Part shown: piece by piece, positions 1 to 47,035 of the stretch | Numbering within the stretch: position 1 is the stretch's first letter | How the letters are laid out: each line of letters opens with the position of its first letter | Assembly: GCA_026874595.1 (NCBI GenBank) | Contig: CM049306.1 | Location: forward strand, 60,952,019-61,016,018 | Direction of reading: 5' to 3' | Length of the DNA stretch: 64,000 bases | From: Sipunculus nudus | Lineage: Eukaryota > Annelida > Sipuncula > Golfingiida > Sipunculidae | The notes under the pieces: model-generated | Databases searched by the model: none | What the model was told of the DNA's origin: nothing | The model's input: only the letters and a program-made list of their open reading frames with translations | Position numbers and translations under genes: made by a program

Positions 1-999
1 ACTGGGTAGAAACCCAACCTTGTGATGTAATTTGGAAGTCTCAAAAATACATGAAAAAATGCATCAAAAATAGAAAAAAAATAGAAATGGAGCCATAAGA
101 ATATAAGTTGCTGTGACATAATTTCAGGTTCCCAGGGAGATTTATAAGGACCTCTATGGATGTTCAGTTAGAAGTTTCCAGGTCAACGGTTATGATTTGT
201 GCCAAGCTAACGGCTTGCCAGACAGCATGACAGGAGGATGGCCAAATGGAGAGATGACAGACAAAAGGTGATTTCTCAGCTCAGTATGACTGAAAGTCGA
301 AAAACACCATGCTCATATACAGGGCTATTGTAAGAATATCACTCTTTTCTGCGAGGAGAGGGTCAGTATAATACAAGATGAAACAGTTCTGATCCAAATA
401 ATTATATTTCAGTAGATTTTCCACAACCCCTTAGATAAGTTTCAGTTCCAATGAAATTGCAGTTCAGCAGTGGTGGAACATTAGTTAATATCAAATCTGA
501 TTTTCATGGATATATTGAAAGTATTTGAGTTTTTTACAGTATACCAATTAACCGGTACTAGGTCACAATTTGTAACACAGTCCCATTTGCCTGCTGAACT
601 ATTTATAGGTCATTTACATAGAGTCAACATGGTTCACAAGGGAATGTGTGAATAAGACAACTGGTCAATGTCTGCTGCTTATATGGTAATCGAGGACAGC
701 CAGTGAAATTAGCTGATTACCATAAGGACTGACTTATTTTGTATAATCAGACATTTCACATGCAATCGTAATTCAATATCTAGCAATGTATTCCAACAGG
801 GCACCACTTATACACAGTGTGATTAGTAAATAACTAGTACAAAATTTTGCAACAAGTTACCACTTTGATCTTTTAGTGTCCGGAATGATGCCACGTGTTT
901 CCTAACAGAATTATTGGAAAAGCAATCAAGATGTTGCAAGAGTCAACTCTTATTACACTTTATTCTTTTATCTATCCATATTAAGCTTTGTATCTAGGT

Positions 1000-1670
1000 G
1001 TGGGGTTCTGCAAGGTAGACTGCAGAAAAGAGCTATATGAATGATCACCTCATCTCCATATATTTCACATTTACCTGATCTGTTTATTTCCCTAAGGTTA
1101 CTAACCCTAGAAAATATCTACAATTATAGTGTTGGTTTATTTATTTATAAGATTAATTATGAAATGTTACATTTAACTGTATCTGAACAATTTTGCAAAA
1201 ACTTATATGTCCATCATTACAGAACAAGGCAGAACAAGGAGAATGCATTTTCCCATGTTCCAGTATGTAAAACTGCAGCAAACAGAAAAACTTCACAAAT
1301 CAAAAGGGTTACAATTTGGAACAATACTATGAAAGATATTAATCCTTGTTGTTCAATACCAACATTTAAACGTCATCTGAAAAAAAAAATTTTCTCCACT
1401 TAAGAGTCATATTAATTATATTTAACTAAATTTTTATAATCAAATGTTTATTAGTTTGCTTTTCTCTGTACTGCAAAAAGTTTAATTTTAGTTTTCTTAT
1501 TGCACAGTGCCTGCACTGTATGACCTACTATTTTAATGTTAATACTGAGAAGACATATACTCTGTCAGTTAGTCCATTTTATCACAGGAATAACTACATG
1601 TATAAATGAATGAACTTTTTCATGTATATTTTATATATACTTGTGGCAATAAAAATGAATTTAATTGATT
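1000..1670 (+). mobile_element. 5'-truncated non-LTR retrotransposon, 3' end
   Basis: The frame at 1041-1403 encodes the end of a LINE ORF2: residues like NYSVGLFIYKINYE, VHHYRTRQ, VPVCKT, IWNNT and FKRHLKKK follow the familiar order of the region after the reverse transcriptase in Jockey/CR1-group elements. Just upstream, the same frame reads LQKRAI, stop, MITSS, where the family usually has an arginine (CGA to TGA). The 3' tail ends in GTGGCAATAAAAATGAATT, a typical LINE terminus. There is no reverse transcriptase core, so the copy is 5'-truncated and inactive. The 5' limit is approximate. Confidence 0.7.
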
Positions 1671-1704
1671 ACATATTTACATATTACATATGTAAATATG
1701 TAAT
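1668..1704. repeat. Perfect 14-bp inverted repeat (AT hairpin)
   Basis: ATTACATATTTACA is followed by a 9-base loop and its exact reverse complement TGTAAATATGTAAT. It lies directly after the LINE tail and may be part of the element terminus or of its target. Confidence 0.6.
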
Positions 1705-2089
1705 GATTACATATTTCATATTTTTCTAATAATCTTTTAAATAATTTAATATTATTTGGGAAATGTGTGCCTCTTACTGCTTCCTCAAAATAGCTACTTT
1801 TTAAATATGAGTATCTTACTAATTTCTTTTAATACAAAAAAATTCTTCAGCATGTGCACTCACAGACAGAAAACTACTTGGTTTAAAATGGTTATGTTGC
1901 ATAGTGATCTCACATTTGGATAAAATGAAATAAACAAAATTTTAATTAATGGGTTATCTTATAGCTGGGGATGGCACCTTCATTAGACATTCCATTGATT
2001 TTCAGCTGACAGAGCTCCATGTAATTTGACGGTAACTGGGTATTAATCAAGACTTCTAGTCCTGAGTTGCATGCTAAAATCACTTGTTA

Positions 2090-2345
2090 GGCAAAAAAAT
2101 GTATGGTTCTCAGGCACTTTTTTTTCAGAAACCAGTGCCAGTGGGCAATATTTTATTTTTTTTGTATGTTTCAATTAAAATGTCATATGATTAGGGAAAA
2201 GCATGACAATAACAGATTGTTTTTCTAAACACTACATAACAAAGTAAATCTTATCAAAATTGTATTATTTTATCTTCTTGAAATTTGAAAATAAAAAATA
2301 ATTTTTTTTTAATATTACCTTTTATTTTTTTGGCCTTAGGCCAAG
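2090..2345 (+). mobile_element. Non-autonomous TIR element, degraded copy 1
   Basis: This copy is collinear with the sequence at 8321-8627. Shared blocks include TATGGTTCTCAGGCAC, AATGTCATATGAT, ACACTACATAACAAAG and ATTGTATTATTTTATCTTCT, ending in TTTTATTTTTTTGGCC. The right end is shortened compared with the other copy. No coding capacity. Confidence 0.6.
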
Positions 2346-3278
2346 ACATGCAATTCTGTGGAGGAAATCTCTATACCTAGCATATGAATGTGTTTAAAAA
2401 GATAGTCATAATAGTCATATACATTGGCTTATGCATTATACAGGTTAGGTACATAAAAGGGTCTAATATTCCATTCAGAAGAGAGGGAAATGCAGCACTT
2501 GGTTATTTATAAACTGGTTATTAATTACTGGAAACCTGCCTATCAAATTTACTTGTAATCAATCAGAATTTTCATCATCAGAGATTAACTGAATTTTCTT
2601 ATGAAGCCCTAATTTCACTGCTGCTATAGGTCACCAGGTTCTGATATTAGTACAAGCTGGGATTTTGAGGCATGAACTCTTGTTTGCATGCTTGAGTTAC
2701 CATGGATCCATTATCGCTGAGGGGGATTTGATATGAGCTGCTACTGCATGATATCATTATTAATCATACAAGGTATCAACTTTTATGCATGACATTTTGT
2801 GTGGGATGTTTTAAATTAGGCCCAATCAGTATAGACTGATCAGTGTTGATAGTCTGTGACTAAGAGTGAGTGTCATTTCCAAACCTTATACGATTATGTG
2901 AAATCGATATACTGATAACCTGAATTCTTTTTAAAGCTGATTAAAAATAACACAAAGATCACAAAGTTTGGAGAATCTTTATGTCTCCAGTGTCTATTTT
3001 TAATTCAGTTCATGCATAAGTTTGACTGAATGTGCCTTTGTTTCAAGTTTATGGAGAAGTTGGACAGGCCTGAGACAAAAAAAGAATTTAATATTAAAAA
3101 GAGCTGTTCTAAAGCATTTATGTAATTCTGGCTTACTTGGAGTGCATATTAATGAACTGTTGGTATGTTCTGTTAAGAACAACCTTATAACACCTCTGTG
3201 ATGGATGCATGAGCTTGCACGAGAAGTTGTTAGTAAACACAACCATGTTGACAAACTGAAAAAAAAAACCATATAAAC

Positions 3279-3604
3279 TAAAGCCGCGTGTCCACTTGTA
3301 CCGATGCGGTGCGTGTGCGGTGCAGATACGTAGTTGGATATTTTGTGCGTGTGTCCATTAGATACGTTTTTCAGTGCATTTTTAGGTCTTTCACTCTCTT
3401 TCACCTCTACAAAATGGCACTTTCCGCATGCGTTTCCGAACCCGTGGCTACAATGTCTGGTTTTCAAAAAACGTATCCTTTTCCGCACGCCACACACACT
3501 CCGCACCGCACAAGTGGTCACACTCCTTTATTCCATATGCACAATTTAAAATGCGTCCGCATCTGCATCCGTATCCTAACCGCATAAGTGGAAACGCAGC
3601 TTAA
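3279..3604. mobile_element. PIF/Harbinger-like MITE (320 bp) with TAA duplication
   Basis: The termini are AGCCGCGTGTCCACTT on the left and, reverse-complemented, AGCTGCGTTTCCACTT on the right: 16 bp with two mismatches. TAA flanks both sides (3279-3281 and 3602-3604), the 3-bp target duplication typical of PIF/Harbinger elements. The interior is much richer in CpG than its surroundings and has no transposase. Overlapping ORFs on both strands here are by-products of that base composition. Confidence 0.72.
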
Positions 3605-6422
3605 GTGGTTAGTTGCATATGTGTGGAAGGTGAATGTCATCAGTTAATAAGGCCATTTGCAAACTTTGGTTTGTCTGACTTGGCGTGAGACCTCCTTGTT
3701 GAAAGTGTCTGCATTATTTTGATGCCCCCACATGTTATCAACACATGAATATAAACAAAACAAATAGCCATGCGTGCAGTGTGAACCTTCATATATCAGA
3801 ATAGGCCCCTTTAAAGATGAGGATGATGTCTGGTTTTTAAGGTACTGAATTAAGAGATGAAGGTCACAGGTTCTGTGATGAAATGGTGAATTATCTATAA
3901 AACCTCAGAGATCCTCCCCAAGATCATTACAACAAATACAGGTTATGGTTTCAGGGTTATTCTTATTAACTTATATATGAAACCTGAAGTGCAGAGGACT
4001 TATAAATTATAACATATCATTCTTATCATATGGTTTCCTTCATTCTCATTCTGTAGAAAATGCTGCTCAGTAACAAGTTAAAGCAATAGACTTATCTTTG
4101 AAACATGTATTAGCTGATTAATTTTTTTGAGTGGATCTAAAACTTGCTGTCACAAGATATTATATGTTTGTTTGTACATAATCAGGTGTACAGTCTCTGT
4201 TTGCTTTAATCATGTTTCACTTTTTTGGCATTCATTTATAAATAAAATTCTATCAAAACATTTTTCATTAGCATCCGACTTCTTCTAGTTCAATTTCCAA
4301 GTCTTTTCAGGTATCAAGGGGAATATGCATTACATGAGTAACTGACTTATTCTGACATTTCCAAGATCATTAAACAATCATTTATTTGTGTGTATGTGAT
4401 ATATTTATTAAATATGATGAAGAAATATATGCAAATATTATTGCAAACATTTACTGTGGGTTAACATTATTAATTCAGGACAGACATTATCTGGTAACAT
4501 CTGGCACTCAGCAGCAGCTTGACCATCATGTTGGACCTTTGTGCAGCCTCATACATAACTGTTTATATGAATTGTTTATCCGAAAAAAACTGATACCCTG
4601 AGCTGTTTAGATAAACAAAACTGTACTGTATATTCAAATTTAAAGTTGGAATTAATTTATTTTTAATTTCAAGATGAACACTTGTGTTGAAGGATAAAGT
4701 GTTATTGAATTTTACATTTTGTTTAAGTTATGTAATTATGAAAAAACATCTTATTGTAAAAGTTTTTATCTGCAAGCCTGGTTCACATTAAAAGCATGTT
4801 GTAATGTTCAGTGTTTTGATATTCATTGCCTATTGGCTCTGTTACCTCATTTATCCAAGGCAATTTGCACTTCATCCTTTTTACATGTCAGGTTTAAGGT
4901 CTTAAGACAGTTTGCTCATTATGCAATGATTTAAATCTGCAAAGCCAGCAATTAGGACTTTAATGTGCTGTCTGTTATAGTCTGATTAAACAGGAAGCCC
5001 TTAAAGCCACCTACATCAAGCTAAATCATTGTTACACAAAAAGAAATTGTCAATCACACAAAGGAGTCTTTAGGATCTTCCAGTAAATCATGTAAAAATG
5101 ATAAATTAAAATGTGTAATTAATTAAAACACATAGAAGTGCCACAAGTTCTTGGCATAATGCTGTCTTAAGCTTGAGTAGCTTTAGCAAAAGATAATAAT
5201 CATACTTGGTGAAGATTTTCTCTTACATTTCCATTTAAGTATTTCAATGTTGTGATTATTTTAATCTGCCTCTAAGCTTTACCAATTCAGTCTTCCTTAA
5301 ATATCCCATATAACAATTTAATTGATGTGGGCTAATGTACTTTATGTGGACATATTTTGTGTGTACTTATGCTGGTCATGTGAGTTATGGTCAGTTCAGG
5401 TGGCAGCTGGACGCAGCTGGTGGTTAATTGGGGGGATGTCTTAACACAGGTCACATAAACTAATGAATGTATTATTGACAGACCTTTTTCAATTTCTTGA
5501 CAAGGGCTTATATGTAGCTCTGTCCTAGCTATGTATCTGTTAAAAATTAATAAACATACTTTCACCATAGATGGAAAGTAGGATTTAGCATTCATAAAGA
5601 CACCCAGTATCTGGCTATAATTAAATGTATAAGACTGTATTACTTTATAGTCCTAAATTGTTTAAAACTGAGAGCTAGAAAGATGATAATTCTTGAGAAG
5701 CTATCTAACTGAACCATGACATTCAAACTTTTGTCTGAGTTTCAAACATAATCACTGTTCAAAGGGAAGAAGTTACACAAATAATTAGCATAATCGCATC
5801 TATCACTAATATGCAACTGCACTTGAAAGTATAAAATTATAATTATTTAGTGATATCAATGAACAAATGTCTGTTGTACACAAGGTTTCAGGCTGGAATT
5901 TAGTATTTTTATAAACTAGCATATCAATTAAAGAAGTAAGTAACTGTGAAGGAATGAGACAAACCTATATAATTGGCTACAACCAAACCAATAAACATAC
6001 AAAGAATTTCAATCTCATATCACTGATAATAGCCAAGCTCACTGGTCTTTTGCACTGGGGTATGCATTGAAAATCATCTGATTGGTTATCATAAATATTC
6101 TAAAAAAGTGGAAATGTTAAAGACTTAAAGTAGAGTTGGCAATTTAAGTGGGATACCTGGTCACCAGGCACCAATAACCAGATAAATCTGGAGGGTTGTA
6201 AAATATAGATGTTGGTTTTCATCATAATGCTTTCAAATCATATTTGGCTATAAATCAATTTTTGTGCCATATATCCTGTGATGATATTTAAATTTGTTCG
6301 AAAAATCGCCCAATTTTATTTGACACTCTGCTGAAAAGGCAAATATAATAAAACATGTTGCACATAAAGGCTTCATCATAGAAAAACATTTGAAAATACA
6401 TTGCCAAAGCAATAAACTGGCA

Positions 6423-6423
<1 letters not shown>

Positions 6424-6520
<97 letters not shown>

Positions 6521-6550
6521 GTACATATATATATATGTATATATATACAC
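6424..6550. repeat. (TA)n microsatellite
   Basis: About 125 bp of nearly pure TA with a few G and C interruptions, 26 bp inside the donor of the STK32-like exon. Tyrosine/isoleucine ORFs running through it are artefacts. Confidence 0.95.
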
Positions 6551-6576
6551 TCCAGGAAATTGATAAATCCACCTAC

Positions 6577-6628
6577 CTTCACCATTGGCATCAAATGATG
6601 CTTTACGGGCTGACTGTCCCACTCCCAT
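6577..6628 (-). CDS. STK32: STK32-like (YANK) kinase, first coding exon only
   Basis: Seventeen codons plus one base on the minus strand read [17 protein letters not shown] and end at a good donor (GAAG|GTAGGTGG). Vertebrate STK32 kinases begin with a short exon of the same shape (MG, then S/R/K, then FD-x-x-E), followed by a codon for D and then VNFDHF. The leftover G here would give that D or a similar residue. MGxxxS is an N-myristoylation consensus, so membrane attachment is inferred. The kinase domain is not in the window: nothing resembling a glycine loop was found on the minus strand out to position 1, so intron 1 exceeds 6.5 kb. The head-to-head LRRC27 neighbour matches human STK32C-LRRC27. 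The peptide is very short, so the call rests on motif plus synteny. Confidence 0.55.
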
Positions 6629-7719
6629 GATGTCTGTCACTGCCTCTGTAACAGCTCCAGCACTGAACAGTTATTACTCTCCGTCCAGCAGCCCTGAATA
6701 ATATCCTCTCAACAGGAGTCTACGCCACTCCATCAATTATACCCTGACATGCATGCACTGACTGGAGGTATGTGTGGCACAGGTACACTACCTACGATTT
6801 CCTGTTGTCATTAATTAACCGTCATTAAATGTTACTTATCCCGCCATGCGCTTTGTGAATGTCGACGTTTTGCTTTTTGTTTCAATTTCAGATCTTCACC
6901 CTTCTTTCATAGGAAATTTAAAGACTTTATAAAAATAATGTAATTATTGATTCAAAATTATATATGGTATTAAATACAAAACACTGAATATATCCTTGTT
7001 GCTGGATCCTTATACAAAAATGAACTCATAAACTGAATGATCAATACAAGTGTCAGCAAAGCAAAAATGTCCAAAACTCAAAACTTCGTCAGTTCAAAGG
7101 CCAAAGTGCACAGGGAGCTCAAGTTTCTTTGATCTGCGTCCCCTTATCCTTTGTAATCAGAGTTTCCACGCTTCAATCAAAGAAGTTCACTGGTCGTGTC
7201 CAGAAGGCCGGTGCTGCTGTCACTGGCACTGAGTGCAAGCTTTGAACGTGTGCTGGTCATGCGGGGCCGCTCCAACCCAACAACTGATAAACGGCCAGTT
7301 ATCATCAATCACCGGCGCAAAGTAACACCGAAACGAATTAACACTCGTGCCTTCACAAATGAACCGGATTGCCGCCTTCTGCCGCGCTGATTTCGCTAAT
7401 TTGAACCCCAACGCCAGCTCTTTTATTCCCGCGTTTCCAATTTGTTGGCGCCGTGTCAGTGTTTTGCGTCCACATTCCAGGAACATGGTGAACACCGTTT
7501 CGGGGAATCCTCGAAAGTCACGTGACCTGGTCGCTATAGCCACCGCTTGAGCTTGATCCGCCATATTGAAATGGTGTGCTGGTCAAGACGTGGTGCTCTC
7601 GCTTCATGTGTTTTGTCATTTGCTCATCTTTGTGTATCTGGGTATAAACCAACAGCTGAGAAATATGTGATAAAGGAATAATGGTTGTGAAAAACTACAA
7701 TAGGAGTTCTTAAAGACAT
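6629..7719. promoter_or_regulatory. Candidate bidirectional promoter, STK32-like / LRRC27-like
   Basis: The two ATG codons face away from each other about 1.1 kb apart. The right half (about 7190-7620) is far richer in CpG than the rest of the window. It contains a perfect palindromic E-box GTCACGTGAC at 7517-7526 and a YY1-like CCGCCATATTG at 7558-7568. Transcription start sites cannot be placed from sequence; 5' UTR exons of either gene may lie here. Confidence 0.5.
7220..7564 (-). CDS. Unrecognised 114-codon ORF in the CpG-rich promoter block
   Basis: It opens with a strong Kozak-like ATGGCGGATC and has mixed, protein-like composition at its start (MADQAQAVAIATRSRDFRG). I recognise no domain. 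It is divergent from LRRC27 and upstream of the STK32-like exon, so it could be an upstream exon of that transcript, a small independent gene, or a chance ORF in CpG-rich DNA with few stops. The ATGGCGG start also overlaps the YY1-like motif, which argues for a promoter element rather than a start codon. Confidence 0.2.
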   Translation of the reverse strand: MADQAQAVAIATRSRDFRGFPETVFTMFLECGRKTLTRRQQIGNAGIKELALGFKLAKSARQKAAIRFICEGTSVNSFRCYFAPVIDDNWPFISCWVGAAPHDQHTFKACTQCQ

Positions 7720-7947
7720 ATGAACATGTCGTACGCAAACGGAAGTGACTTTGAGCAAGAGGACCCTGGCCCGCCACCTGACGGGAGGGATGCCCCATCC
7801 GCTGGTACCCGTAAAAGAGTAGAGACTGAGGCTGCTGTAGCCCGCCTTATTGACGAGGCAGGAAAAAATGGTGCTAAAATTCTAGAGCTTAACAACAAAA
7901 ACATCAAAAGCATTCCAGTTGCCCTACTCGAACTGTCACAACTACAG
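7720..7947 (+). CDS. LRRC27: LRRC27-like exon 1
   Basis: 76 codons, ending in phase 0 at ..LSQLQ|GTGATT. Encodes the acidic/proline-rich N-terminus and the first leucine-rich repeat (AKILELNNKNIKSIPVALLE). Confidence 0.85.
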
Positions 7948-10900
7948 GTGATTCAGATCCAAAGTTTACACTTAGTCATTAAAATCTCCATTGGCATTGA
8001 TTTTTGTATATTATTAATGTTATTATTATAATTATAAAGGTATAAAGCCATAACACAATTAAAATGATAAACATATGTACTGAAAACAAACTTCAAAACT
8101 TTATATGCCATGGACAAATAACTGTGACAGTGACACAAACAATGTATTTCTCTCTCTCTCTCTCTCTCTCTATATCTATATCTATATATATATATATATA
8201 TATAATATATATATTCATGATTTATAGAGAGGAATACGAGTAGAGTCAAGTGCTTATTACTATGATTAGCTGGTAGTGCAGGTGTTGAATTCACATTTAT
8301 CTGCAATATAAAATGTAACAGGCCAAAAAATAAAAAGGTATGGTTCTCAGGCACTTTTTTTCAGAAAGCATTGCGGGCTAGCGGTATTTTATTTTTGACC
8401 TATTTTTTTGTTTGTTTTGATAAAAATGTCATATGATAAGGGAAAAGCAAGAAAATAACAGTTTTTTCCTGCTAAACAGGTAAAAACACTACATAACAAA
8501 GGAAACAGTATCAAAATTGTATTATTTTATCTTCTTGTAGGATGAAAACCAAAATAATAATGTTTGATGCGGGGGGTTCAAACTTATTGGGCGGTACCTG
8601 AGAATCGAACCTTTTATTTTTTCGGCCTTAACCGACAGATCTTGTTTGTAATGTGAGGACTCGAGAAGGGCAAATGTGGTTAAACAGCACATTCAGTCAG
8701 GATTGGGCGAGTAATACCCAGGTGTCTTTGACCCAGTCAGTGTGCCATAGTTGACACCATATTGCCCATACTGAAACCTTTAAAACCCATAAACCCCGGG
8801 TTTACCCAGAAAAACCCACTGGGCTGGGCTTTATGCTTAAAATCCAGGTTATACCCAACCCTGCATTCAGTTCAAGATAGTGCACAGGCTGTATAAATCA
8901 ATTAGTATGAAAAGAAGGTCAAAGAGCATACCACAGCAGATTAAAATGTTGCATGTTGGAATTAAAATAAACTTCTGTCAAGTTAAGTTTTTTTTAAATA
9001 ATACAGGTATTTACTTCCCAGTAATGGTAATATACAGTTAATAGGCCTGCATGTGTTTTATGTTGCTTAATTGCTCTTTTAAAATTCTGACAGGGGGTTC
9101 CTCGTCATAAATTTTAGAATTACTAATAATTACTGAAACAAGGTCTGTGTCCAAAAGGATTGACCAACAATCACTCTTTGGCCCAAGTTTGAAACCTGCT
9201 GGCTGCTGGTGCACTGTGCCAGCATAAAATTTGTTTATTTTCAGTTAACATAGACATACCTACATTAGCACAAATCTAGGTTAACCAAATTGACAAGGTG
9301 AACCATAACAGATTATATATATATACATATGCCTTTGGTCTCTACATGAATTGTAATGTTAAAAAAATAATTACAGAGATATGTTAATTCTAAATTCATC
9401 TTGGATGTAAAAGAATCTTTTGCAGAAATTAAGACATAAACACAACATCTGTAATAATACTGTATATGTGTATGTTTTTCTTCATAAGAACATTTGATGT
9501 GTGCTTAAATAATTGGCAGGTTTTTAGAAGATTCATCTGCAATTTTCAGAAAACAGAATCTCTGAGCAGTTTCTTTAAATCTGACCACTAGTAGGGGATC
9601 ACTCATGTAATGTAAGATAGATCATCAGTAAAAATTAGCTCATCTCTACCAACCAATATTATAAATAAGAATTAATTGGTTGTTTATGAGAATGTAATTT
9701 GTGACCAGACAATATATAGACCTGTACATTGCCTTGGCATAAAGTAATTGTCATTACAAGGCCTTGCTTGAAACAACCAATTGTAGCAATGTACAGCCAC
9801 CTGATGAACATTACTTTAACATATTATTTATAAAGTGTGGCATGTTGGCTGGTATCAAAGCCAACAAAGGCAGTTTGGGACATTTAAATTATGACATCAC
9901 TTAGAATCCAATAATCTGATCAAGACAAATTGTTCTTTTAGGTTTTGGTAGTGGTTTTGAATATCACTTTCATATTTATGTTATTTTGAAGTTTGCATCA
10001 TTTGAATTAATTACTGTTTTAGTACCTGTACCTGGAAGGAAATGAGCTTACTAGTTTACCTGAGAACTTTTTTGACTGCCTGAGTAATTTACGCTGGCTG
10101 GACTTGAGGAGGAACTACCTAGAATCTATACCCAGCACATATATTGGCCGCCACAAGCACCTACGCAGTCTTCTATTGGAGAGCAACAACCTTAAAACAC
10201 TGCCACTTGAACTTGGTAAGTTATGTTGTATCTCAAGGAAAAATGCAGTATTTTCATTTAAGCTACCTACAGCAGGCTCTATAAAATCTTTTAATGTGTT
10301 CTTAAGCTCTTCCTATTAATGCTTCTTACATATTGATGTTTACTTTTTAATGCGAACAAGGAAGGTTTCATTTGTGCATGCAACTGCCCACAGGGAGGAA
10401 GAATGGAACTGGCCATTTTTCATGTGATAACCCTAATCATTAGGTCCTAGATATTGGCCACGCATGACTACACTGCAGGTGCAGTTATATTTGAGGCTGA
10501 GAATACCGTGCTGTCCTCTGGTGGGTGTATTGTCAACCAGTCTGCCAAAAGACCAGTCACTGGATGGTGATAAATGCACAGATTAACCCTATATTTAATT
10601 AATGCTGTAAAATTAACTGTATAAATCTTATGTCATCTTCACATAAGATTTTGTTGATCACCAGCTGTATATGGGGGAGACATGTTGTTTTCAATGACAT
10701 TGTCTGTTGCCATCTGTTAGGCATCTTATATGTGATAACTTTTTTAGGGCTGCTTGTATTTTCTCCTGAAATTTGAAAAGCACATTGTATCTACTTAAAT
10801 CTTGATTTTCAAAGTGAAATCTGTGCATTTATACATTTATCAAGATACTATAACTTTTGAGATAAGGCATAGTGCCCCCCCCCCCCCCACCCAGATTTGG

Positions 10901-13900
10901 AAGGTTGGAGGTTGAGACATATATCTGTTTTATAGCGTCGGAAAAAGCAAACTTAGCAAAGCCATTCTAGTTAAATAATGCTTTACATTTGAAGTAAAAA
11001 CATAATGTGTGCCTCCAATTTTTCAAGAGACATGGAACATTTATGTCAATGCTGTGTAGATGTGCTCACATGCACACACACAAATCCAAATGTTAACAAA
11101 TCTTGTTCTTTGTACAGAATTAAAAAGAGAGCTAGCCAGTGCATTTTTAGGAATAGATATGTTTGGCCTTATAAGATATGAAATATACTCAGCAATTAAT
11201 GTTAAATGTATTTTATAATTAGGCACACAGATGCCCAGTGTAGGGGTGACTGTAAAGTTCAGATTATTGAGGAGTGTCTAACTCTTTATACATATATTGA
11301 TATATAATACAGCCAAGCTGCTGAGGCTGCATTCACCCTTTATAAACCTCATATTTTCATTTTCAAATTTGGCAAGAAGAATGATTAGTTACTTACGTCT
11401 GAAGCAAAATGTCAAAAGTGATACTCTTAATACTGAAATGTAAATTAGAATCTTATCTTTTTTGTAACTTTTATATCATTGTTTAAAGGGGTTCTTATAA
11501 ACTGTAAAACTGTTTTATAGGTTTGATCTCAACCCTGAATGGCTTGAACATTGCCAACAATCCACTTGAGTTTCCTCCAGATGATATCATTGAGAGAGGC
11601 ACTCAGGCAATCCTGCAGTTCTTTAGAGAACTCCTGGCAGCAAAGTCAGGTGGCATGCTTCCAGAAGAAGGTGTGTAATTATAGTAACTTAGCAGTTTGT
11701 TAAACTTCCAGTGTTACATTACTTCACACATGGTTTTATTAATGGATACTGGCTGAAGCTTTTTTGAACATTGTGGTGTAATGAATAGTGGGTTTAACTT
11801 GGGGCCACAAGGTTGTGGGTTTATATAGCAGTGCTTAGCATCCCTTTCAACCTGCCTTTCCCGCAAAGAATCCTGGCCAAAGTCTTTACAATAAGGATGC
11901 GCGGTCTCCACCCAGGAGTGAATGGGTATTGGTCATGAGCAGTAGGCAAATGTAGAACGAACAGTCTTCCAGCACCTGATATGGCTGCTTGGGTTGTATG
12001 CTCCCAAGAGGGCTTAGAAAAGGTACCAGATTGAACAGGCCTAAAGACTAGGAAGTGTAAAGTCAGATGAGACTGACATTGTTGGTGATATCAGACTGTA
12101 AACCAAACTTTTACTTTTAATGTTTGTTTTTTTTTTCCAGTCTTCAAATGACTTAATGTTTGTTTTTTTATATTCTTAGTTTTTGAAACCTTGAAATTTT
12201 TGTTGTTTAGATGTTGTATATAAATTTTTATTCAGAGTATATGTAGTTATAAGTGAACTTAAACTAATTAATTGCACACAATTTGTTCCTGGCCATTAAA
12301 AACACTTGACAAATTAGCAACAAACACCATATACCATCAGTCGTTACAATTATAAAAAAATCACAGAATTTAACTGAAAACCCTGTGACATTTAGTCTGA
12401 TGATGCGTAGCAATCTTTATATATTTGATGTCTTCCTTTAAACATCTTATCACTGATCTGTATCTGTGCCTTTCACATTTTATTCTGAATATTTATGCTC
12501 AAGTATATGTGTGATGCAGGGATAAGGATGGACCAGTTGCAAATCCAGGAACCAGTGAAGAGTGCTGGTCGGTCAGAAACATATCCGGACTGGGGCAGCC
12601 ATGACACACAGCTTCTTGAAGACTACATGCTGCAGCAGGAAGGGAGTCAGACCCTGGCTGGGGGACATCCCATGGTGACCCCTGACCCTGACCTGAATGG
12701 TCCTGTCCATCAACCCATGTCCCTTCACAAGCCACGCAGCTATGGTGAGATAAAAAAGTCAAAACAGGAGAAATTAAGGAAAATACGATCAACCAGTCAA
12801 GCAGACAGACGGAGTGCCAAGTGAGCAGGGTTTTCCTTTTTATATAATTTTCTTTTATTCTTTGAAATTGTCTGCTATGTGTATTTCTAAAATAAAAATA
12901 TAATAAATTTCTTCAGCTTTATCAGCTGTTCTATATTTGATATAATTGATTGAATTAAGATTACTGTGGTTGGCTCCATGTGCAATAGGATAAAATTAAG
13001 AGTAATAAACAAACTTTGCATGCATATCTGATGATCACATAATGAACTGACCTTTGTTTAACAAGTCAGCAATCTGGCAGAACTGTCATTTTCATTTAAG
13101 GACATATATTGACTTGTGTAATCAGTTCACACTTTGAACAGTATGTATTGCAGATTTGGGACACAGATAAGTGGATTCATCTGCTGCTGAGATGAATGAA
13201 ACAGGAGATGATTGAGTGTATGAATCAGAATAATATATTAACCTATTTCTGACAATTCTTATAAAGTTTTAAGATGTTACATAATCTGATCCAAATGGCA
13301 ACTAATGAGAAAATTCACACCTCTAGTTGTCTAGACATATTGTATGAATTTTGCAGTAAACAAGGTCGGATAGTGCAATACGATGGTCCTGTTCCTCCAG
13401 AGGTGATTGAACAAAGAATGCTTGAAGAGCGAAAATTGGCGAGATTAAAAGAAGTCAAGGAAAAGCAAGACTTAATTCTTCAGAGGAGAAAGTGAGTGTA
13501 TATTTAACATCATCTGCTCTTCAAAATGTAGATACATCTTTGTTATAGGACAGCAGCAGCTCATGACATCATGAACATGTGTGTCTTGTATCATGTAGCA
13601 AAGGTTATGCTGTATGCATGAATACTACTTTCATGCTCTGCATACACTGCAGCTGCTGTTCCTGCTATCACTAAGATATCACTGTACATGGCGGGTCAAC
13701 TTAACACTCGATATATTATAATCATTGACCACAGATGAATCATTTTTATACAGATTTTCCTGGCCTGGTCTGATCATCCATGAACATACTATATGTCCTG
13801 CACTTTTTTGATTTACAGCCCATATTTATCAGTGATTTAAGGCATTGCATGGGCAAAACAAGGTGCCGCTGTTCCAAGTTAAAGTATATGATATAAAAGG

Positions 13901-30964: not shown

Positions 30965-31500
30965 ACAGTAAGGAGGTCACGCAGATCACGTGCGTGGTGT
31001 CTGTCAGACGCGTCAGTCAGTCGGACGGCGATCATTGGTCACAAGTTAAACCAATAAAAAAGGGGATAATATATGATCTTGGAAATGTTTAACGGAAGTT
31101 AAATCTGTAAACACACTGCACTTGATTTTGTCACCAGGATTGATTGCCAACATTTGGTAATTTACCGATTTCTGATGAATTTAGCGTAGGAGTCTGATTT
31201 TACTCTCGCAGCCGACATGTTACCAGGGCCCACGTAACAAGGCCACGTGAGTGAAAGTCAATCATTTTTATATTTTTCCAACAAGTCTGCGTTCGCGCCA
31301 GTTTGGATCTTGGTCACATGTTAGAACAACACTTGACGTTTTTCTCTTTCATTTAAGTACAAATATGATGGATGACAATAGACATTTCACCCCCAAAACT
31401 TGCCCCAATTACGGGTATGTAAAATGGGCTTTAGCGCGCCCGGGCGGGCGCCTTTGAACTACAGGCCCGTGACAAACGCGCGCCCTGGCGGGCGTTATTG
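30965..31500. promoter_or_regulatory. CpG-rich segment with E-boxes inside the hAT element
   Basis: CACGTG occurs near 30987 and 31242. A GC-rich stretch at 31430-31500 carries two related blocks, GCGCGCCCGGGCGGGCG and CGCGCGCCCTGGCGGGCG. It resembles a promoter, but no transcript start can be shown. Confidence 0.25.
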
Positions 31501-35946: not shown

Positions 35947-36342
35947 CTATAGAGAAGAAATTGTAGAAGTTGAGAAGTTGCCATGTTTGATCTGAATTGA
36001 AGAATGGGGGATTGTTGCTAATAATATCTTGTGATCTGACCATGTGTTTTCTAATGTTGAAACTGAAGCATTTAAACAGTTAGTAAAGACAAGATCTATG
36101 GTATTTCCATGGTCATTGGTTGGTTCTCTGACTAGTTGTTGACATTTAAAGTGTTGACATAATTGTGTTAATTTGGTGTTATATATTATATTAGAAATGT
36201 CAATATTGAAATCGGCCATGATCACTATAGGCAGATTGTGGTCAACTTGAGAGACTAAAACTTGGGAGTTCAGAGAAGAAGTTACTGATGGAACATGCGG
36301 TCCGCAGAGTCTAAGTGTGAATATAGAGAAGAGATGACTCAA
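35947..36342 (-). pseudogene. Endonuclease-domain remnant of a non-LTR retrotransposon
   Basis: On the minus strand, LPIVIMADFNIDI, EPTNDHGNTIDLVFTN and WSDHKILLATI reproduce, in order, the C-terminal motifs of the LINE apurinic-type endonuclease (GDFN-like, substrate loop, SDH). About 131 codons are open. The upstream part ends at a G/C homopolymer at 36401-36425 and no reverse transcriptase follows, so this is a fragment. Confidence 0.75.
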
Positions 36343-36400
36343 AATCTGGTGTTGTGTGGTGGTGAAGGGTTACATGGGGACTCAGCTGATTGACCTGATT

Positions 36401-40228: not shown

Positions 40229-43200
40229 CACTGTCTTCTAGTTGCCTGAACCTGGAATCTGGGGCACTGATGTCGTATCATGTACATGTCCTGTAGTCTG
40301 TCCTTTAGTTGCCTGTACCTGGATACCAGGGTACTGAGGAATGATGAAGATGAACCTTGCCTGTAGTCTGTCCTTTAGTTGCCTGTGCCTGGATACCAGG
40401 GTCCTGATGAATGAAGCACCTTGCCTGTAGTCTGTCCTTTGGTTGCCTGTACCTGGAAACCTGGCTACTGATGAATGAAGTACCTGTCCTGTAGTCTGTC
40501 CTTTGGTTGCCTGTACCTGGATACCAGGGTACTGAGGAATGATGTCATGTCCTGTAATCTGTCCTTCAGTTGCCTGTTTGTGGAAACCTGGATCCTGATG
40601 AATGAAGCACCTTGCCTGTAGTCTGTCCTTTAGCTGCTTGTACCTGGATACCAGGGTACTGATGGATGATGTACATGTCCTGTAGTCTGTCCTTCAGTTG
40701 TCTGTACCCAGAATCTGGGGCACTGATGGGTGATGTACATGTCCTGTAGTCTGTCCTTTAGTTGTCTGTACCAAGAATCTGGGGCACTGATGGATGATGT
40801 ACATGTCCTGTAGTCTGTCCTTTAGTTGTCTGTACCAAGAATCTGGGGCACTGATGGTTGATGTACATGTCCTGTAGTCTGCCCTTTAGTTGTCCGACCA
40901 AGAATCTGGGGTACTGATGATAGATGTGTGTGTCCTGTAGTCTGTCCCTTAGTTGTCTGTACCAAGAATCTGGGGCACTGATGGATGATGTACATGTCCT
41001 GTAGTCTGTCCTTTAGTTGTCTGTACCAAGAATCTGGGGCACTGATGGATGATGTACATGTCCTGTAGTCTGCCCTTTAGTTGTCTGTACCAAGAATCTG
41101 GGGCACTGATGGATGATGTACATGTCCTGTAGTATGTCCTTTAATTGTCTGTACCAAGAATCTGGGGCACTGATGGATGATGTACATGTCCTGTAGTCTG
41201 TCCTTTAGTTGTCTGTACCAAGAATCTGGGGCACTGATGGATGATGTACATGTCCTGTAGTCTGTCCTTTAGTTGTCTGTACCAAGAATCTGGGGCACTG
41301 ATGGATGATGTACATGTCCTGTAGTCTGTCCTTTAGTTGTCTGTACCAAGAATCTGGGGCACTGATGGATGATGTACATGTCCTGTAGTCTGCCCTTTAG
41401 TTGTCTGTACCAAGAATCTGGGGCACTGATGGATGATGTACATGTCCTGTAGTCTGTCCTTTAGTTGTCTGTACCAAGAATCTTGGGCACTGATGGATGA
41501 TGTACATGTCCTGTAGTCTGTCCTTTAGTTGTCTGTACCAAGAATCTGGGGCACTGATGGATGATGTACATGTCCTGTAGTCTGTCCTTTAGTTGTCTGT
41601 ACCAAGAATCTGGGGCACTGATGGATGATGTTCATGTCCTGTAGTCTGTCCTTTAGTTGTCTGTACCAAGAATCTGGGGTACTGATGATAGATGTGTGTG
41701 TCCTGTAGTCTGTCCTTTAGTTGTCTGTACCAAGAATCTGGGGCACTGATGGATGATGTACATGTCCTGTAGTCTGTCCTTTAGTTGTCTGTACCAAGAA
41801 TCTGAGGCACTGATGGATGATGTACATGTCCTGTAGTCTGTCCTTTAGTTGTCTGTACCAAGAATCTGGGGCACTGATGGATGATGTACATGTCCTGTAG
41901 TCTGTCCTTTAGTTGTCTGTACCAAGAATCTGGGGCACTGATGATAGATGTACATGTCCTGTAGTCTGTCCTATAGTTGTCTGTACCAAGAATCTGGGGC
42001 ACTGATGGATGATGTACATGTCCTGTAGTCTGTCCTTTAGTTGTCTGTACCAAGAATCTGGGGCACTGATTGATGATGTTAATGTCCTGTAGTCTGTCCT
42101 TTAGTTGTCTGTACCAAGAATCTGGGGTACTGATGATAGATGTGTGTGTCCTGTAGTCTGTCCTATAGTTGTCTGTACCAAGAATCTGGGGCACTGATGG
42201 ATGATGTACATGTCCTGTAGTCTGCCCTTTAGGTGTCTGTACCAAGAATCTGGGGTACTGATGATAGATATGTGTGTCCTGTAGTCTGTCCTTTAGTTGT
42301 CTGTACCAAGAATCTGGGGCACTGATGGATGATGTACATGTCCTGTAGTCTGCCCTTTAGTTGTCTGTACCAAGAATCTGGGGCACTGATGGAAGATGTA
42401 CATGTCCTGTAGTCTGCCCTTTAGTTGTCTGTTCCAAGAATCTGGGGTACTGATGATAGATGTGTGTGTCCTGTAGTCTGTCCTTTAGTTGTCTGTACCA
42501 AGAATCTGGGGCACTGATGGATGATGTACATGTCCTGTAGTCTGTCCTTTAGTTGTCTGTACCAAGAATCTGAGGCACTGATGGATGATGTACATGTCCT
42601 GTAGTCTGTCCTTTAGTTGTCTGTACCAAGAATCTGGGGCACTGATGGATGATGTACATGTCCTGTAGTCTGTCCTTTAGTTGTCTGTACCAAGAATCTG
42701 GGGCACTGATGATAGATATACATGTCCTGTAGTCTGTCCTATAGTTGTCTGTACCAAGAATCTGGGGCACTGATGGATGATGTACATGTCCTGTAGTCTG
42801 TCCTTTAGTTGTCTGTACCAAGAATCTGGGGCACTGATGGATGATGTTAATGTCCTGTAGTCTGTCCTTTAGTTGTCTGTACCAAGAATCTGGGGTACTG
42901 ATGATAGATGTGTGTGTCCTGTAGTCTGTCCTATAGTTGTCTGTACCAAGAATCTGGGGCACTGATGGATGATGTACATGTCCTGTAGTCTGCCCTTTAG
43001 GTGTCTGTACCAAGAATCTGGGGTACTGATGATAGATATGTGTGTCCTGTAGTCTGTCCTTTAGTTGTCTGTACCAAGAATCTGGGGCACTGATGGATGA
43101 TGTACATGTCCTGTAGTCTGCCCTTTAGTTGTCTGTACCAAGAATCTGGGGCACTGATGGATGATGTACATGTCCTGTAGTCTGTCCTTTGGTTGTCTGT

Positions 43201-46200
43201 ACCAAGAATCTGGGGCACTGATGGATGATGCACATGTCCTTTAGTCTGTCCTTTAGTTGTCTGTACCAAGAATCTGGGGCACTGATGGATGATGTACATG
43301 TCCTGTAGTCTGTCCTTTAGTTGTCTGTACCAAGAATCTGGGGCACTGATGGATAATGTACATGTCCTGTAGTCTGTCCTTTAGTTGTCTGTACCAAGAA
43401 TCTGGGGCACTGATGGATGATGTACATGTCCTGTAGTCTGCCCTTTAGTTGTCTGTACCAAGAATCTGGGGCACTGATAGATGATGTACATGTCCTGTAG
43501 TCTGTCCTTTAGTTGTCTGTACCAAGAATCTGGGGCACTGATGGATGATGTACATGTCCTGTAGTCTGTCCTTTAGTTGTCTGTACCAAGAATCTGGGGC
43601 ACTGATGGATGATGTACATGTCCTGTAGTCTGTCCTTTAGTTGTTTGTACCAAGAATCTGGGGCACTGATTGATGATGTTAATGTCCTGTAGTCTGTCCT
43701 TTAGTTGTCTGTACCAAGAATCTGGGGTACTGATGATAGATGTGTGTGTCCTGTAGTCTGTCCTATAGTTGTCTGTACCAAGAATCTGGGGCACTGATGG
43801 ATGATGTACATGTCCTGTAGTCTGCCCTTTAGGTGTCTGTACCAAGAATCTGGGGTACTGATGATAGATATGTGTGTCCTGTAGTCTGTCCTTTAGTTGT
43901 CTGTACCAAGAATCTGGGGCACTGATGGATGATGTACATGTCCTGTAGTCTGCCCTTTAGTTGTCTGTACCAAGAATCTGGGGCACTGATGGAAGATGTA
44001 CATGTCCTGTAGTCTGCCCTTTAGTTGTCTGTTCCAAGAATCTGGGGTACTGATGATAGATGTGTGTGTCCTGTAGTCTGTCCTTTAGTTGTCTGTACCA
44101 AGAATCTGGGGCACTGATGGATGATGTACATGTCCTGTAGTCTGTCCTTTAGTTGTCTGTACCAAGAATCTGAGGCACTGATGGATGATGTACATGTCCT
44201 GTAGTCTGTCCTTTAGTTGTCTGTACCAAGAATCTGGGGCACTGATGGATGATGTACATGTCCTGTAGTCTGTCCTTTAGTTGTCTGTACCAAGAATCTG
44301 GGGCACTGATGATAGATATACATGTCCTGTAGTCTGTCCTATAGTTGTCTGTACCAAGAATCTGGGGCACTGATGGATGATGTACATGTCCTGTAGTCTG
44401 TCCTTTAGTTGTCTGTACCAAGAATCTGGGGCACTGATGGATGATGTTAATGTCCTGTAGTCTGTCCTTTAGTTGTCTGTACCAAGAATCTGGGGTACTG
44501 ATGATAGATGTGTGTGTCCTGTAGTCTGTCCTATAGTTGTCTGTACCAAGAATCTGGGGCACTGATGAATGATGTACATGTCCTGTAGTCTGCCCTTTAG
44601 GTGTCTGTACCAAGAATCTGGGGTACTGATGATAGATATGTGTGTCCTGTAGTCTGTCCTTTAGTTGTCTGTACCAAGAATCTGGGGCACTGATGGATGA
44701 TGTACATGTCCTGTAGTCTGCCCTTTAGTTGTCTGTACCAAGAATCTGGGGCACTGATGGATGATGTACATGTCCTGTAGTCTGTCCTTTGGTTGTCTGT
44801 ACCAAGAATCTGGGGCACTGATGGATGATGCACATGTCCTTTAGTCTGTCCTTTAGTTGTCTGTACCAAGAATCTGGGGCACTGATGGATGATGTACATG
44901 TCCTGTAGTCTGTCCTTTAGTTGTCTGTACCAAGAATCTGGGGCACTGATGGATAATGTACATGTCCTGTAGTCTGTCCTTTAGTTGTCTGTACCAAGAA
45001 TCTGGGGCACTGATGGATGATGTACATGTCCTGTAGTCTGCCCTTTAGTTGTCTGTACCAAGAATCTGGGGCACTGATAGATGATGTACATGTCCTGTAG
45101 TCTGTCCTTTAGTTGTCTGTACCAAGAATCTGGGGCACTGATGGATGATGTACATGTCCTGTAGTCTGTCCTTTAGTTGTCTGTACCAAGAATCTGGGGC
45201 ACTGATGGATGATGTACATGTCCTGTAGTCTGTCCTTTAGTTGTTTGTACCAAGAATCTGGGGTACTGATGATAGATGTGTGTGTCCTGTAGTCTGTCCT
45301 TTAGTTGTCTGTACCAAGAATCTGGGGCACTGATGGATGATGTACATGTCCTGTAGTCTGTCCTTTAGTTGTCTGTACCAAGAATCTGGGGCACTGATGG
45401 ATGATGTACATGTCCTGTAGTCTGCCCTTTAGGTGTCTGTACCAAGAATCTGGGGCACTGATGGATGATGTACATGTCCTGTAGTCTGTCCTTTAGTTGT
45501 CTGTACCAAGAATCTGGGGCACTGATGGATGATGTACATGTCCTGTAGTCTGTCCTTTAGTTGTCTGTACCAAGAATCTGGGGTACTGATGATAGATGTG
45601 TGTGTCCTGTAGTCTGCCCTTTAGTTGTCTGTACCAAGAATCTGGGGCACTGATGGATGATGTACATGTCCTGTAGTCTGCCCTTTAGTTGTCTGTACCA
45701 AGAATCTGGGGTAGTGATGATAGATGTGTGTGTCCTGTAGACTGTCCTTTAGTTGTCTGTACCAAGAATCTGGGGCACTGATGGATGATGTACATGTCCT
45801 GTAGTCTGCCCTTTAGTTGTCTGTACCAAGAATCTGGGGCACTGATGGATGATGTACATGTCCTGTAGTCTGTCCTTTAGTTGTCTGTACCAAGAATCTG
45901 GGGCACTGATGGATGATGTACATGTCCTGTAGTCTGTCCTTTAGTTGTCTGTACCAAGAATCTGGGGCACTGATGGATGATGTACATGTCCTGTAGTCTG
46001 TCCTTTAGTTGTCTGTACCAAGAATCTGGGGCACTGATGGATGATGTACATGTCCTGTAGTCTGCCCTTTAGTTGTCTGTACCAAGAATCTGGGGCACTG
46101 ATGGATGATGTACATGTCCTGAAGTCTGCCCTTTAGTTGTCTGTACCAAGAATCTGGGGCACTGATGGATGATGTACATGTCCTGTAGTCTGTCCTTTAG

Positions 46201-47035
46201 TTGTCTGTACCAAGAATCTGGGGCACTGATGGATGATGTACATGTCCTGTAGTCTGCCCTTTAGTTGTCTGTACCAAGAATCTGGGGTACTGATGATAGA
46301 TGTGTGTGTCCTGTAGTCTGTCCCTTAGTTGTCTGTACCAAGAATCTGGGGCACTGATGGATGATGTACATGTCCTGTAGTCTGTCCTTTAGTTGTCTGT
46401 ACCAAGAATCTGGGGCACTGATGGATGATGTACATGTCCTGTAGTCTGCCCTTTAGTTGTCTGTACCTAGAATCTGGGGCACTGATGGATGATGTACATG
46501 TCCTGTAGTCTGTCCTTTAGTTGTCTGTACCAAGAATCTGGGGCACTGATGGATGATGTACATGTCCTGTAGTCTGCCCTTTAGTTGTCTGTACCAAGAA
46601 TCTGGGGCACTGATGGATGATGTACATGTCCTGTAGTCTGTCCTTTAGTTGTCTGTACCAAGAATCTGGGGCACTGATGGATGATGTACGTCCTGTAGTC
46701 TGTCCTTTAGTTGTCTGTACCAAGAATCTGGGGTACTGATGGATGATGTACATGTCCTGTAGTCTGCCCTTTAGTTGTCTGTACCAAGAATCTGGGGTAC
46801 TGATGGATGATGTTCATGTCCTGTAGTCTGTCCTTTAGTTGTCTGTACCAAGAATCTGGGGCACTGATGGATGATGTACTGTGGTCTGTCTTTTAGTTGT
46901 CTGTACCAAGAATCTGGGGTACTGATGGATGATGTACAAGTCCTGTAGTCTGTCCTTTAGTTGTCTGTACCAAGAATCTGGGGCACTGATGGATGATGTA
47001 CTGTGGTCTGTCTTTTAGTTGTCTTTTCCTGGATA
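40229..47035. repeat. 64-bp satellite array, about 106 copies
   Basis: The unit is CCTGTAGTCTGTCCTTTAGT, TGTCTGTACCAAGAATCTGG, GGCACTGATGGATGATGTAC, ATGT. Units at both edges (before about 40660 and after about 46990) are diverged; the core is nearly uniform. Recurrent variant units carry GTACTGATGATAGATGTGTG or TTAATGT in place of TACATGT. The minus strand lacks stops in all three frames of the consensus, so ORFs of up to 154 codons appear. These are a by-product of unit length 1 modulo 3 and are not called as genes. Confidence 0.97.
42064..45263. repeat. Tandem 1600-bp higher-order duplication within the satellite
   Basis: 42064-43663 and 43664-45263 carry the same order of variant units. 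Matched landmarks include a diagnostic G-to-T change giving TTTAGGTGTCTG at about 42231/43831 and 42999/44599, the GATAGATATACATG unit at 42712/44312, and CACATGTCCTTTAGTC at 43230/44830. 1600 bp is exactly 25 units. A 768-bp (12-unit) spacing also recurs inside each copy. Confidence 0.85.

Follow-up and report, generated by a model that had tools for sequence, protein, structure and literature searches.

The window analysed here, 64,000 nucleotides of the Sipunculus nudus genome (contig CM049306.1, C1 in Table 1, positions 60952019-61016018), carries two divergently oriented genes: an STK32 kinase gene on the minus strand, whose first coding exon and part of whose first intron lie within the window, and an LRRC27 gene on the plus strand. 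Searches of the whole genome covered 1.43 Gb in 153 contigs. As the STK32 query we used a human STK32A sequence that is identical to 4fr4 over residues 9-192, its residues 1-8 lying outside this match; the LRRC27 query was the human LRRC27 sequence.

Table 1. Coordinates of the STK32-LRRC27 locus, given as window positions or, where marked C1, as contig positions.
Feature	Position	Strand	Remarks
STK32 exon 5	C1:60820645-60820550	minus	About 131 kb left of the window; similarity match only, whole-genome search
STK32 exon 4	C1:60859572-60859535	minus	About 92 kb left of the window; opens with G; fitting splice sites and phase
STK32 exon 3	C1:60895036-60894711	minus	About 57 kb left of the window; ends with AG; fitting splice sites and phase
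STK32 exon 2	C1:60951347-60951292	minus	671 bases left of the window edge; opens with TG (V of VNFDHF), ends in phase 0
STK32 intron 1, part in window	1-6576	minus	Whole intron 7,247 bases; its far end lies 671 bases outside the left window edge
STK32 exon 1, first coding	6628-6577	minus	52 bases, 17 codons and 1 base (G); read directly
Gap between start codons	6629-7719		1,091 bases; putative promoter region of both genes
CpG-dense core of gap	7151-7550		29 CpG over the 400-base stretch; observed/expected ratio 1.09, against an average of 0.33 for the window
E-box palindrome GTCACGTGAC	7517-7526		Single copy in window
YY1-type site AATATGGCGG	7558-7567	minus	Single match to the long pattern in window
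LRRC27 exon 1, first coding	7720-7947	plus	ATG at 7720 or 7726; in-frame join to exon 2
LRRC27 exon 2, leucine-rich repeats	10023-10215	plus	LRR_8, E 2e-10 (enclosing frame); splice sites
LRRC27 exon 3	11521-11670	plus	Similarity to human LRRC27; splice sites
LRRC27 exon 4	12520-12820	plus	In-frame join
LRRC27 C-terminal coiled-coil-like segment	13403-13492	plus	Similarity only, human residues 329-358, E 0.22
LRRC27 C-terminal segment	17208-17342	plus	Similarity only, human residues 433-477, 40% identity, E 5e-4

According to the initial annotation, the minus strand carries an STK32-type exon of 17 codons whose donor is in the expected phase, and the junction with exon 2 bears this out. The donor GTAGGT lies directly 3' of exon 1, and the two exons join in frame (G|TG, encoding V) and in ungapped register; the junction V is residue 18, the position that it also has in human STK32A. 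The encoded leader has the MGxxxS start of the human form, here MGVGQS, followed by FDxxxx-VNFDHF. Because exon 2, outside the window, joins in frame, we regard the assignment of this exon to the start of an STK32 coding sequence as confirmed. A chance open stretch at this position, with the true STK32 first exon elsewhere, could be argued for on the grounds that the 17 codons taken alone match weakly (E = 53, tblastn with human STK32A) and that the gene model is derived from genomic sequence. Against this stand the in-frame junction in ungapped register with an exon 7.2 kb away and the rarity of the degenerate pattern MG-x3-S-x5-FD-x3-E followed by one base and GTRRG, which occurs a single time in 204 kb of C1 including the window and was absent from all 40 first-order Markov simulations of 64 kb each. 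We therefore consider a misidentified exon highly improbable.

Kinase exons following a VNFDHF-like start had been predicted further along the minus strand, and their absence would have spoken against the annotation. A search of 100 kb to the left of the window, extended by 30 kb (130 kb in total), together with the whole-genome search, located exons 2-5 in order. The exon 5 match covers residues 158-189 with 63% identity and lies in order with exons 1-4. Within the left 6.6 kb of the window (positions 1-6572 of the minus strand), neither tblastn nor Pfam gave a kinase exon; these exons are located beyond the window. The gene thus extends over 138 kb or more; its first three introns measure 7.2, 56 and 35 kb and the fourth about 39 kb. 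For the remaining C-terminal half of the kinase domain and the tail, no further convincing exons were found in the 130 kb taken leftward. Within intron 1, positions 6423-6547 are taken up by a long (AT)n run, at a distance of about 28 bases from the donor of exon 1.

The predicted product matches human STK32A (4fr4) over residues 11-158 with 261.9 bits, and the next kinase, RSK2, follows at 120 bits (among the best 60 of 323 distinct PDB sequences, E 1e-20). The protein kinase domain PF00069 is matched at residues 23-157 with 122.5 bits; the match covers profile positions 1-134 of 263 and hence the N-terminal half only. One strong STK32 locus was found in the genome, with 187 bits and a runner-up at 121 bits and 37% identity (among 115 genome matches with E <= 0.1), in a search that ran exon by exon and that a diverged second copy could escape.

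On the opposite strand, LRRC27 exons 1-4 all join in frame with GT/AG sites. Four colinear plus-strand matches correspond to residues 77-139, 119-169, 329-358 and 433-477 of human LRRC27 (E 1.3e-14, 7.4e-6, 0.22 and 5e-4, in this order), the other six of the ten rows listed having E >= 5.5. Exon 2 is 50% identical to residues 77-139, and exon 4 gave neither a Pfam match nor a listed match to the human protein. Since the C-terminal region matches too, the gene is set apart from those of general leucine-rich-repeat proteins. In the accessible text of a study of glioma, LRRC27 is one of 12 cilium-associated genes in a score and STK32 is not mentioned (PMC8640099). Two copies of a dispersed element were seen by eye, at about 2100-2340 in STK32 intron 1 and about 8338-8630 in LRRC27 intron 1, both with ATGGTTCTCAGGCACTTTTTTTCAGAAA near one end and a TTTTTTCGGCCTTA-like stretch at the other.

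The LRRC27 start had been placed about 1.1 kb from the STK32 exon and facing away from it, in agreement with the 1,091 bases that separate the two ATGs. The CpG-dense core of this gap is the window maximum among 400-base stretches stepped by 50; its near rivals have 26 CpG (at 31151) and 24 (at 3201). The core lies off-centre, closer to LRRC27, and may serve LRRC27 alone. The gap is in keeping with a promoter of the CpG type, which may comprise two opposed core promoters. A minus-strand open frame of 120 residues in the CpG-rich gap (7220-7582) had no Pfam match and is taken as a chance occurrence.

Motifs in the gap were scanned with 23 patterns. Because these patterns were chosen by the analyst, the E-box palindrome and the YY1-type site are modest evidence. 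Of the three YY1 cores, two lie in the gap, which also carries a single short E2F-like site and some common short patterns at close to chance frequency, and has no match to the NRF1, ETS, NFY, SP1, CRE and full X-box patterns between 6629 and 7719. Control of LRRC27 through a cilium X-box was considered and rejected: the gap has no match to either of two full X-box patterns, and the nearest X-box-like places, at 6639 and 6904, each differ from the consensus at three positions. Such control is unsupported because this three-mismatch level is common, being reached at 153 window positions, which count as 306 strand hits since the consensus is palindromic.

Elsewhere in the window, a satellite array at 40360-47001 consists of about 104 copies of a 64-base unit with 93% matches. 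A minus-strand open frame at 35947-36369 has a weak, below-cut-off match to the endonuclease/exonuclease/phosphatase family (PF03372, E 0.0055) and is possibly a retrotransposon remnant. Two exon fragments of a FAM193-type gene on the minus strand (50537-50457 and 50072-50013), located by tblastn, match FAM193_C when joined (E 1.6e-12). Larger minus-strand frames up to 61887 resemble what we take to be the rest of this gene, and gave no Pfam match to FAM193. Human FAM193A and FAM193B share their chromosomes with STK32B and STK32A; this co-location would point to an old STK32-LRRC27-FAM193 linkage.

On the human side there are three STK32 genes (STK32A, STK32B and STK32C), compared with the one strong locus in S. 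nudus, and STK32C and LRRC27 lie on opposite strands. The initial annotation had described these two as divergent neighbours at 10q26.3, and their adjacency is documented: the gene order, taken from a printed list of a 10q26 loss, runs PPP2R2D, BNIP3, JAKMIP3, DPYSL4, STK32C, LRRC27, PWWP2B, C10orf91, INPP5A, NKX6-2 in the portion of that source available (PMC4411697). The same two genes are directly adjacent in S. nudus, with a FAM193 gene on the LRRC27 side, where the human list has PWWP2B (PMC4411697). PPP2R2, which the same list places at a distance of two to four genes from STK32C, gave six matches in S. nudus, all at C1:48521165-48542917, the sole locus found in the genome. This locus is on the same contig as STK32 at a distance of 12.4 Mb, so the STK32-LRRC27 pair stayed while that neighbourhood was reshuffled. 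For PPP2R2, a small sample of one gene, long-range linkage is kept and local order is changed. The JAKMIP profile PF16034 had no match in the S. nudus genome and none in the control genomes either.

How did the same divergent arrangement come to be present in both lineages? The comparison includes only two of them, human and S. nudus, and the divergent arrangement might have arisen twice, once on the way to vertebrates and once on the way to S. nudus. We regard this as very unlikely, given that the same two single partners are directly adjacent in the same divergent orientation and that the chromosome linkage with PPP2R2 common to both favours descent. The arrangement is best explained by inheritance, and the pairing is probably very old. 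In the fuller form of this reading, to which we give an even chance, the divergent pair, orthologous to human STK32A/B/C and LRRC27, was inherited from the common ancestor with vertebrates, with opposed core promoters in one CpG-rich region. A single CpG-rich open region of about 1.1 kb would then carry both core promoters; LRRC27 transcription would start close to the CpG core (about 7.5-7.7 kb). For STK32, the start would be in this core as well, which would give the transcript a long 5' leader, or else closer to its own ATG. A rearrangement within the gap would cut elements off one of the genes, which would tend to hold the pair together.

Alternatively, the two genes may be ancestral neighbours with separate promoters that have not yet been broken apart in two slowly rearranging lineages, without selection. 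This we judge to have a little under an even chance. Chromosome-scale linkage is generally kept here, as seen for PPP2R2, the CpG core is off-centre towards LRRC27, and human divergent pairs are in part retained even in distant animals: of the 1,399 known, fly shares 66 and worm 50, according to the accessible text of PMC12672016. What argues against such purely passive retention is that the pair is intact although local order around PPP2R2 has been shuffled, again a sample of one gene. The proposal that conservation of the pair reflects a shared bidirectional promoter kept under selection is accordingly upheld in part: the gene identities, the divergent orientation and the human neighbour order stand, and the shared promoter under selection is a fair hypothesis from the sequence, as retention without selection accounts for the same facts. 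Doubtful, in our view, is the more extended proposition that one promoter region has been common to STK32 and LRRC27 since the bilaterian ancestor and that vertebrates kept it, after genome duplication, at the STK32C copy alone.

With divergent pairs that have CpG-rich bidirectional promoters, as described in the available part of PMC12672016, the locus has in common the opposed genes, the short CpG-rich gap and the apparent deep conservation. It differs in that its gap, 1,091 bases from ATG to ATG, is borderline in length: such pairs are usually defined by a distance below 1,000 bases between transcription start sites (PMC12672016). Expression is reported there to be less synchronised in divergent pairs about 1 kb apart, and the main text, as far as accessible, names neither STK32 nor LRRC27. 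Co-regulation has been argued not to be what preserves divergent pairs (PMC3403606, accessible text). A shared STK32-LRRC27 promoter is not treated in the consulted passages of papers that name both genes, and neither a link between STK32C and the term "bidirectional promoter" nor STK32 synteny in molluscs was found in the literature searched. This literature, which leaves out most subscription journals, also yielded no description of the pair's conservation outside vertebrates.

In conclusion, the divergent STK32-LRRC27 pair of S. nudus adds a further case to a known class, the conserved divergent gene pairs. Two genes that have received little study may thus be linked in their regulation. 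Should other animal phyla have the pair too, STK32C would be the vertebrate copy that retained the ancestral neighbour, and the pair would provide a clean test of promoter sharing against chance in the keeping of very old divergent pairs. Should the promoter indeed have been shared since the bilaterian ancestor, the locus would represent a very old regulatory unit that combines a kinase gene with a cilium-associated gene.
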